From: Planctomycetota bacterium
Lineage (GTDB): Bacteria > Planctomycetota > Planctomycetia > Pirellulales > Pirellulaceae
Assembly: GCA_026692905.1 (NCBI GenBank)
Contig: JAPLNL010000041.1
Location: forward strand, 1 to 64,000
DNA length: 64,000 nucleotides
Direction of reading: 5' to 3'
Part shown: one piece after another, positions 1 through 50,379 of the stretch
Layout of the letters: the number at the start of each line of letters is the position of its first letter
Position numbering within the stretch: the first letter of the stretch is position 1
The notes under the pieces: generated by a model
What the model was told of the DNA's origin: nothing
Seen by the model: the letters and a program-made list of their open reading frames with translations, nothing else
Databases searched by the model: none
Translations under genes and position numbers: made by a program

Positions 1-84
1 ACGACGCGCAAGCTAGTGAATTCCTAGCACGACGCGCAAGCTAGTGAATTTACGCTGTGGGTCACTAGCTTGCGCGTCGTGCTA
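1..84. repeat. Palindromic dispersed repeat, family A
   Basis: A 23-nt arm (25-47) that starts TAGCACGACGCGCAAG is matched exactly by its reverse complement at 62-84, with 14 nt between. A further direct half copy lies at 1-22. A related inverted pair is found at 50322-50379, so this is a dispersed intergenic element. The left end is cut by the window edge. Confidence 0.9.
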
Positions 85-96
85 TGTTACGTTTTG

Positions 97-2037
97 CTAG
101 GTACATTCCGTTCCGCCGCTTGCTGAGTCAGCAAAAAAGACGGACGCATCAACATATCGAGCGCCGATGCTCCGTGCAAATCCAGCGTCGCTATCCATGT
201 CGCCGACCATAACCAATTTTGCCACATCAAGTTTGTATTTGCGACTGAGATAAATCGCCATTCCCGGCATTGGCTTTCGGCAAAAGCAGCCGACCGGGAA
301 GGCTGGGTGCGGGCAATAACAGACCTCTTGAACGGGCAAACCCAGCAGATCGATGGTCCGTTGAAACGCACCGTTTGCGTCGGCTTGACTCAGCTTTCCC
401 GATGATATTCCGCTTTGATTGGAAACGAAAAACAGTGAGTAGCCATTCTCAATCCAACGCATTAGAGTTTCGCGGCGGTTTGGCAGGAGTATGACATCGT
501 CCGCGTGCCGAGGATAAATTTCGCCGCTGAGGGTTGTTCGCAGCGTCCCATCCACGTCGAGCAACAGACCTTTTCCCGTGTGCCCAGCCGGAACTCGTCG
601 AACAAAGGCAATGGAATCAATGGCCGAAAAACCTTCGTCCCATTCCGGTCGTTCCAGTGAGTCGTGCCAGCGTTGCAAAGCGATTGGTGGAGGTAAATTC
701 GGGTCTTGTTTGGTGAGCTCTTTCATTTCGGCAGGTCCAAGCAATTTGCCATAACGATCCAACGTCCGGTGTACCACGTTGATCCGCGCGTCTTCAATGG
801 ATGTTTGCAGGAATCGACAACGAACGGGAACGCCTGCTTGGTGAGCGATTCGAATGACACCGGCTCTTGAAACTCGAGTTGGGTAGGTGTTGTCCAGCAC
901 AACTCGCTTGCCGCCTTCAGCCAGCAATTTTTCCAGGTGGCCATTGAGATCATCGATTTTGCCGCCCATCACATCACGATTGAGTCTCGCGTAGCCTTTG
1001 TCGACGTACGATTGAACAAGTTCGGTTTTGCCAGCCCCCTGAATCCCCATGAGCAAGACAATTTCAGACGAATCGTTAGGGCCTTGGTCGGGCAAAAGAC
1101 TTGCCATGGACGAGGGTTTGGTGGGTGGCTGGATTGCGGCAGCTGCATCGGGATCGGCGTCGAAGGAGTATTTGATGCTGAGGGCAGTCTGATCACTGAT
1201 ATCGAGAACTAGCTTGGTCGCTTGAAGCGACGAGAGCAGACTCGTTGTCTTGGTGGCTCCGACAAGAGGGATTACGTTGTCGCCACCGCTTAGGACAGCA
1301 GCCAAGGCTACTTCGTAGGTTGTGGCGTTGTGCCGCTTTGCTAAGGGCACGAGCACTTTGTTCTTCTCGAGCTTCTCGACTTTCGCATAGCCGCCCAAAG
1401 GTCGATATGCCAAGAATGGGATACCGAGCTCTTTGGATAGCAGAAGCATCCCGTCTGCAGCCGACTTGCGGGCAAGAACGCTGAGTTCGCATTGCAGGGA
1501 CTCGACGGTAAAGTGCCGAGCGGCTTGCCGAACTTCGGACGGCCCCACGTTGCAAAGTCCAAGATGGAGAACTTTTCCGGACTTCTGCAGTTCCGCGAGA
1601 ACGCCAAGGGTTTCTTCGAACGGCACTCGGGTATCTTTGGCATGCAATTGCAGCAGGAAAAGCTGTTCCGAACCGAGTTCTCGCAAGCTCGCATCAACGG
1701 ATTGCCGAAGATGTTTTGGACTACTGTTGGGAATCCATTTGCCACCTGGCCTAACCAAGCCCACTTTCGTAGCAACCCGAATTTCCTCTTTCGGCCCTTG
1801 CCACGAATCGATGGCTTGTTTTGCTAGCGTTTCGCCGTAATGAAAATCGGAATTGTCGAGGCAATAGGAATCGGCCGTGTCGAGGAGTCGGATTCCATTG
1901 TCGAAAGCCAGATGGATCAAGGCGATGGCATCATCGAGGCTGGGTCGACCTTCGGTGGAAAGCCGTAGCAACCCTAACGCAAGCGGCGGGTTAAGCTGGC
2001 CAAATATCCCAAATAGATGGTGAGTTGGTACGTTCAT
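97..2037 (-). CDS. Aldo/keto reductase - P-loop kinase - HAD phosphatase fusion
   Basis: A 646-residue protein with three recognisable domains. Residues about 15-300 are an aldo/keto reductase barrel in which the usual catalytic set can be seen: Asp53 and Tyr58 in DTADSY, Lys91 and His132. Residues about 325-480 form a small P-loop kinase: the Walker A is GIQGAGKTE (331-339), and a later LDNTYPTR segment (391-398) resembles polynucleotide-kinase-type enzymes. Residues about 488-640 are a HAD phosphatase of the HisB/GmhB/PNKP type: DVDGT (494-498), SNQSG from 529, a Cys/His cluster at 563-576 typical of a zinc site, Lys578, and GDMDSD around 602. The kinase and HAD pair looks like a bacterial end-healing or sugar-phosphate enzyme, and I cannot tell which. 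The fused reductase is unusual. No signal peptide, so probably cytoplasmic. The ATG at 2037 is the only sensible start. It is monocistronic, flanked by repeats. Confidence 0.85.
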   Translation of the reverse strand: MNVPTHHLFGIFGQLNPPLALGLLRLSTEGRPSLDDAIALIHLAFDNGIRLLDTADSYCLDNSDFHYGETLAKQAIDSWQGPKEEIRVATKVGLVRPGGKWIPNSSPKHLRQSVDASLRELGSEQLFLLQLHAKDTRVPFEETLGVLAELQKSGKVLHLGLCNVGPSEVRQAARHFTVESLQCELSVLARKSAADGMLLLSKELGIPFLAYRPLGGYAKVEKLEKNKVLVPLAKRHNATTYEVALAAVLSGGDNVIPLVGATKTTSLLSSLQATKLVLDISDQTALSIKYSFDADPDAAAAIQPPTKPSSMASLLPDQGPNDSSEIVLLMGIQGAGKTELVQSYVDKGYARLNRDVMGGKIDDLNGHLEKLLAEGGKRVVLDNTYPTRVSRAGVIRIAHQAGVPVRCRFLQTSIEDARINVVHRTLDRYGKLLGPAEMKELTKQDPNLPPPIALQRWHDSLERPEWDEGFSAIDSIAFVRRVPAGHTGKGLLLDVDGTLRTTLSGEIYPRHADDVILLPNRRETLMRWIENGYSLFFVSNQSGISSGKLSQADANGAFQRTIDLLGLPVQEVCYCPHPAFPVGCFCRKPMPGMAIYLSRKYKLDVAKLVMVGDMDSDAGFARSIGARYVDASVFFADSASGGTECT

Positions 2038-2055: not shown

Positions 2056-2183
2056 AAAACGATTGTCCTCAATCGTTTCCTGAGTGCAAAACGATTGTCC
2101 TCAATCGTTTCCTGAGTGCAAAACGATTGTCCTCAATCGTTTCCAGAGTGTAAAACGATTGTCCTCAATCGTTTCCTGAGTGT
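2056..2183. repeat. Four tandem 32-bp units, each a small palindrome (family B)
   Basis: Four head-to-tail units start at 2056, 2088, 2120 and 2152. Each contains AAACGATTG, TCCT, CAATCGTTT, which forms a hairpin, followed by a TCCTGAGTG-type spacer. Only single-base differences separate the units. The unit is palindromic and regular, but no cas genes are near and the spacers are constant, so this is not CRISPR. Confidence 0.95.
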
Positions 2184-50321: not shown

Positions 50322-50379
50322 AGCACGACGCGCGAGCTATTGAATGGGATGGTCGATTCACTAGCTTGCGCGTCGTGCT
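50322..50379. repeat. Family A palindrome, second copy
   Basis: Left arm AGCACGACGCGCGAGC begins at 50322, and the right arm, ending GCGCGTCGTGCT at 50379, is its near-complement. It is the same family as 1-84, with slightly diverged left arm. It lies between thiL and the convergent TIGR03790-type gene. Confidence 0.9.

Follow-up and report, generated by a model that had tools for sequence, protein, structure and literature searches.

A conserved bacterial fusion of an aldo/keto reductase, a PNKP-like kinase and a HAD phosphatase, and its possible role in nucleic-acid end healing

We analysed a window of 64,000 nucleotides from a Planctomycetota bacterium (Pirellulaceae; assembly GCA_026692905.1), which starts from base 1 of the 69,857-base contig JAPLNL010000041.1. 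At positions 97-2037 of its minus strand, a single open reading frame (ORF) with an ATG start and no internal stops encodes a protein of 646 aa, in which an aldo/keto reductase (AKR) is followed by a P-loop kinase and a HAD phosphatase (Table 1). Pfam matches exceeding the curated cut-offs were found for all three domains: Aldo_ket_red at residues 19-286 (E 3.2e-44), the P-loop domain AAA_33 at residues 327-427 (E 3.5e-10) and the phosphatase domain PNK3P at residues 493-614 (E 9.4e-09). An earlier note, made from the letters of the DNA, had proposed that one chain joins a reductase to a PNKP-type kinase-phosphatase pair. The ORF and its three Pfam domains confirm the single chain, and the PNKP-type reading of the pair is backed by both sequence and fold. 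The residue numbers given at that time were right for D53, Y58, K91, H132, the P-loop (G331-T338), D494 and D496, but the residues named K578 and D603 are really K588 and D613. AlphaFold modelled the 646-aa protein (20-sequence input) with a predicted local distance difference test score (pLDDT) of 87.0 and a predicted template modelling score (pTM) of 0.79; the kinase-HAD part by itself reached a pLDDT of 88.9 and a pTM of 0.83. As the best 50 matches of a fold search with the whole model were all AKRs, the kinase-HAD part was searched with its own model. No description of an AKR-kinase-HAD fusion was found in the literature searched.

Table 1. Features of the gene, with residue numbers of the protein and positions in the window
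Feature	Residues	Window position	Strand	Basis
Whole gene, AKR - PNKP-like kinase - HAD phosphatase, 646 aa		97..2037	-	layout common to 44 aligned proteins
Aldo/keto reductase domain, AKR13-like	15-290	1168..1995	-	
AKR catalytic Asp53	53	1879..1881	-	invariant in 44/44 AKR-bearing sequences
PNKP-like P-loop kinase domain	322-482	592..1074	-	best PDB sequence match mammalian PNKP; fold
Walker A / P-loop GIQGAGKT	331-338	1024..1047	-	K337 invariant 44/44
N-R-D motif	353-355	973..981	-	aligns with mammalian PNKP NRD; R354, D355 invariant 44/44
HAD-IIIA phosphatase domain	487-635	133..579	-	profile matches, alignment, fold
HAD DxDGT motif	494-498	544..558	-	D494, D496, T498 in 36/36 core + N-terminally extended; motif absent in 8/8 pseudo-HAD
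Zinc-type cluster C575 H577 C584 C586, then R587 K588	575-588	274..315	-	sequence alignment

This layout is not a one-off: the AKR-kinase-HAD proteins form a true, conserved fusion family. It is present in 44 aligned proteins (window included), with identities down to about 31%, which come from Planctomycetota, Myxococcota, Verrucomicrobiota and Pseudomonadota. The set comprises 25 core, 11 N-terminally extended and 8 pseudo-HAD members. It excludes same-gene duplicates carrying two locus ids, the contig-edge fragments L020/L024, L021, L010/L027 and Among these seven, L092, L093 and L094 start at contig ends, an AKR tail being visible in L094, and AKR-free kinase-HAD proteins are L091, L095, L067 and L098 (L095 is doubtful, its D382-N383-T384 aligning as A-N-G). 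L109 is interrupted by a contig end, its distal HAD residues lying beyond the sequence. A frameshift or an assembly error joining separate genes, which the earlier note had named as a possible refutation, is ruled out by the identical layout in other genomes, including a second metagenome-assembled genome (MAG; G177 = L022) with a 93% identical protein. Nor are catalytic residues missing, the other objection raised there: in the first-tier homologues (22/22, window included), the AKR tetrad, K337, N353-R354-D355, the C575-H577-C584-C586 (CHCC) cluster and HAD residues D494, D496, S539, K588, D613 and D617 are all invariant.

With regard to the reductase, the barrel fold, the Pfam match and the D53-Y58-K91-H132 tetrad place the domain in the AKR superfamily. 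These positions form the catalytic tetrad of AKRs, and they are unchanged in 44/44 AKR-bearing proteins. The closest folds and sequences are AKR13B2, perakine reductase (AKR13) and the pyridoxal reductase PdxI, with 27-31% identity. In contrast to the window protein, the AKR13 enzymes and PdxI are stand-alone enzymes for small carbonyl compounds and are not part of such a fusion.

The second domain is a P-loop kinase with the NRD motif and the catalytic residues of PNKP kinases, of which K337, R354, D355, R391 and R424 are unchanged in 44/44 proteins; N383 is an alanine in L106 and L108. The closest solved sequence is mammalian PNKP, which also gives a significant match to the window HAD and has the NRD motif and a TT-SG run in common with the window protein. 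However, in mammalian PNKP the phosphatase precedes the kinase, the reverse of the window order, the CHCC cluster is absent from the aligned stretch, and there is no AKR; the full mammalian protein carries an FHA domain. T4 Pnkp has the kinase followed by the HAD phosphatase, as in the window, and both of its domains align by Foldseek and VIA-align, with 14-19% identity in the structural alignments. It nevertheless lacks an AKR and is not known to have the zinc-type cluster, and its relative domain orientation differs from that of the window model (root-mean-square deviation about 12-13 Å). The kinase domain of Clostridium thermocellum Pnkp is a further fold match; this enzyme is joined to an RNA ligase, and the Pnkp1/Rnl/Hen1 entry likewise names an RNA ligase, not a reductase, as partner.

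The HAD domain carries D494, D496, T498, K588, D613 and D617 of PNKP-type phosphatases on the same chain as the kinase. Its HAD-IIIA fold also contains a putative zinc-type cluster (C575, H577, C584, C586), as in GmhB and HisB-N, whose folds are the closest to the window HAD. GmhB-type and HisB chains show the same C-x-H...C-x-C-R-K-P stretch. These enzymes are, by name, small-molecule phosphatases and have no kinase, and the three GmhB/HisB chains that were aligned are devoid of the PNKP-like TT-SG run. The specific profiles for either enzyme remained below their cut-offs (PRK08942, 74.3 vs 178 bits for GmhB; hisB_Nterm, 42.3 vs 140 bits for HisB). Because it has a GmhB/HisB-like zinc-type loop, the window HAD is, as judged from its sequence, not a standard PNKP phosphatase. 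In L082 and L097, the CHCC cluster is lost and DxDGT is retained.

The DxDGT motif is missing in 8/8 members of one Myxococcota group (L086, L087, L088 and L105-L109), the pseudo-HAD group. L106 and L108 have an aspartate aligned at position 494, yet no DxDGT motif; for the other six rows, the alignment at 494 differed between two alignments. The CHCC cluster is retained in 8/8, which suggests that the zinc-type loop serves some function other than phosphatase catalysis. The eight rows make up one side of a branch in the AKR tree (99, starred). The kinase tree requires two changes for them, so that the kinase alone shows no single origin of the group. Their mean pairwise identity is 0.49 for the AKR, 0.50 for the kinase and 0.32 for the HAD; in the 11 N-terminally extended, motif-bearing proteins, the corresponding values are 0.46, 0.48 and 0.50. 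In the pseudo-HAD group, the phosphatase has thus been relaxed, whereas the reductase and the kinase were retained. This speaks for a joint function of reductase and kinase, which probably act in series. The earlier suggestion that all three steps are needed on one substrate remains plausible, but is too strong, as DxDGT is missing in 8/44 proteins that keep their AKR and kinase residues.

We tentatively propose that the protein is a PNKP-type enzyme that heals nucleic-acid ends and has acquired a reductase module, a reading to which we give a probability of roughly 0.4. Reduction of an aldehyde yields a primary alcohol, and a kinase converts an alcohol to a phosphate. Should the kinase act on the 5'-OH of polynucleotides, as its relatives indicate, the natural aldehyde would be a nucleic-acid 5'-aldehyde. 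With NAD(P)H, the AKR would reduce a nucleoside 5'-aldehyde, a product of C5' oxidation, at the 5' end of a broken strand to a 5'-hydroxyl, which would be phosphorylated by the adjacent kinase. The HAD would take the 3'-phosphate off the opposite side of the same break, and the outcome would be a ligatable nick with a 3'-OH and a 5'-phosphate. DNA or RNA as substrate, a 5'-aldehyde as the group reduced, and the order of the steps are inferred here. Each of the three expected activities would answer one of the three chemical problems posed by a C5' break, and the pair that evolution retains together would be the one that acts on the 5' end. Somewhat more cautiously still, this may be an enzyme dedicated to C5'-oxidised strand breaks, in which one chain directly reverses an oxidised DNA or RNA terminus by reduction. 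To our knowledge, and in the literature searched, no enzyme has been described for the reductive reversal of 5'-aldehyde ends.

5'-Aldehyde ends can arise in DNA and RNA from hydroxyl radicals or enediyne antibiotics (PMC4227780, PMC12564780, PMC3950721), and the 5'-aldehyde was the major hydroxyl-radical product in the RNA studied (PMC4227780). The lesions of neocarzinostatin are mostly single-strand breaks bearing a 3'-phosphate and a 5'-aldehyde (PMC3950721). In a bench protocol, borohydride turns the 5'-aldehyde into a 5'-OH; PNKP is used later in this protocol, in other steps, and not on the reduced 5' end (PMC3950721). For the zinostatin and calicheamicin double-strand breaks of mammalian cells, the resolution of 5'-aldehydes was called 'essentially unknown' in 2012 (PMC3825254). 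A further review gives the DNA 5'-aldehyde a half-life of days and names only lesion-unspecific repair in vitro (PMC12564780).

Several points weigh against the end-healing reading. AKRs act mostly on small molecules, and we know of no AKR that acts on DNA ends. The window HAD is as near or nearer to the small-molecule phosphatases GmhB and HisB, and the second lid arginine of the kinase, R428, is replaced in 6/44 proteins. The NCBIfam PNKP equivalog TIGR01663 scored 107 bits vs a cut-off of 502.8, a shortfall which speaks against a PNKP equivalog as modelled and not against a PNKP-like mode of working. In PHROGs, the window protein matched a single family, which lies on the AKR side and has no known function, and PADLOC gave no match for the four family proteins scanned. 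In a neighbour survey made with a simple gene caller, which may have overlooked small genes, no neighbour family was shared by more than two loci, except within a single genus-level group (Nannocystis, Pirellula). Fpg-type genes provide weak support for DNA repair at best: as detailed below, their adjacency concerns one related pair, which counts as no more than a single independent event. Fpg itself leaves a 5'-phosphate. The Verrucomicrobiales copy, L035, lies before a Phos_pyr_kin-family gene, which counts against DNA repair. Finally, 5'-aldehyde ends beta-eliminate to 5'-phosphate on heating (PMC4227780), and most radical-derived blocked ends decay unaided to 3'- and 5'-phosphates (PMC3825254), so that an enzyme may be unnecessary.

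The strongest alternative, which we nonetheless regard as doubtful, is a small-molecule enzyme, in which the AKR reduces a metabolite aldehyde, the kinase phosphorylates the resulting alcohol, and the HAD removes another or the same phosphate for recycling. The small-molecule phosphatases among the nearest relatives of the HAD fit this, but the nearest solved kinase relatives by sequence are PNKPs, and the T4 and Clostridium enzymes match by fold. Moreover, combining a kinase with a phosphatase in a small-molecule enzyme would be futile if both targeted the same position, and no broadly recurring metabolic operon was seen. Repair is favoured over metabolism.

A DNA-repair enzyme whose AKR acts on other aldehydes (abasic sites, 3'-unsaturated aldehydes or the enal from beta,delta-elimination), with the PNKP half healing 3'-P/5'-OH ends separately, appears improbable. 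Such aldehydes are named as DNA ends (PMC12564780). An Fpg-type glycosylase does adjoin one homologue: pseudo-HAD L087 immediately follows, at a distance of 21 bp, a gene whose product combines Fapy_DNA_glyco, H2TH and zinc-finger domains, and in its relative L086 (= L110) the same Fpg-type gene is three called genes away. A phmmer search of 54 sources found no Fpg gene beyond those of L087 and L086 = L110. Since these aldehydes are on the 3' side or free, the retention of the AKR and the kinase after loss of DxDGT would be left unexplained. It is most improbable that the AKR is a redox sensor that gates the kinase by NADPH/NADP+ rather than a catalyst, as the Kv-beta AKR is thought to gate potassium channels, given that the matches behind this idea are generic AKRs of 21-22% identity and that a full tetrad with its histidine invariant in 44/44 suits catalysis.

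If the 5'-aldehyde reading is true, this would be the first dedicated enzyme known for that lesion. The pairing of a reductase with a PNKP-like kinase would be a candidate for direct repair by reduction, the enzymatic counterpart of borohydride treatment, and a candidate route for surviving damage by enediynes or radicals. The group that has naturally lost DxDGT with AKR and kinase kept would serve as a built-in control on which activities pair.

The family is spread unevenly. In the genus of the window, 8/27 genomes match at E <=1e-20 (own genome counted), among them a contig-edge fragment (G189) and a copy spread over two contigs (G211); in the family sample, 10/199 genomes match, and five of these matches extend beyond the AKR. 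The kinase-HAD query matched 150/294 genomes of the Planctomycetota phylum sample at 1e-8; among the matches listed, only G000, G374 and G401 cover kinase and HAD, G402 is a short fragment, and nearly all the remainder are HAD alone. A scan of GTDB contigs gave 23 loci, 21 close relatives (54-95%) and 2 weak ones, from Pirellula-type planctomycetes, Nannocystis, Minicystis, other Polyangia, one unclassified MAG, one Verrucomicrobiales MAG and two Lysobacterales MAGs. Relatives from named strains include those of Nannocystis exedens DSM 71 (L039) and Minicystis rosea DSM 24000 (L034). Matches were found in 21/282 Myxococcota genomes at 1e-60, some of them not across all three domains in that search, and in 1/288 Verrucomicrobiota genomes, the starting genome itself. 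In the class of the Lysobacterales genome, 3/274 match at 1e-50: the starting genome with three domains and two with the AKR alone. In a quick AKR tree, the Verrucomicrobiales row stands beside planctomycetes from a different class, and a Myxococcota row is the neighbour of the Lysobacterales rows (supports 89 and 93, neither starred). This patchy distribution over phyla and the groupings in the AKR tree suggest horizontal transfer.

No plasmid match for the kinase was found at 1e-5. A phage origin was rejected, as two viral-contig scans gave only the same two HAD-only matches, and a defence system was rejected on the PADLOC result for the four proteins. Among phage records, two huge phages encode kinase-HAD proteins that have no AKR, and others matched through the AKR only. 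The two huge-phage proteins, L067 (LR756511) and L098 (LR756500), have 311 and 318 aa, share 40% and 30% identity with the window protein and possess the CHCC cluster. In 11 Myxococcota members, a domain of ~150 residues precedes AKR-kinase-HAD at the N-terminus (e.g. L083:3784-4227, alignment A3). It gave four weak Pfam matches, each in 1/11 members (best E 0.023), a best PDB E of 0.17, and no PHROGs match for three members. By eye alone it resembles a helix-turn-helix, a likeness on which no claim is based.

At the locus itself, the downstream neighbour of the gene lies beyond the sequence, and on its opposite side is a divergent ribosomal block with rpsM, rpsK, rpoA and rplQ, as read by eye from the translations. 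Pfam matches were obtained for 8 of 10 chosen neighbour genes of the family, with mixed functions. A palindromic repeat, CGATTGTCCTCAATCG, occurs at window positions 2056-2182 and 2303-2364, as four tandem units of 32 bases, and inverted copies lie close by. It has 81 exact matches in the genome (40 forward, 41 reverse; reversed control 0) and looks like a dispersed element of the repetitive extragenic palindromic (REP) type. Near the contig start, at window positions 28-81, CACGACGCGCAAGCTAGTGA forms an inverted pair, and a second inverted pair, one arm of which has two mismatches, is located at 50324-50377, as expected of a dispersed hairpin element.
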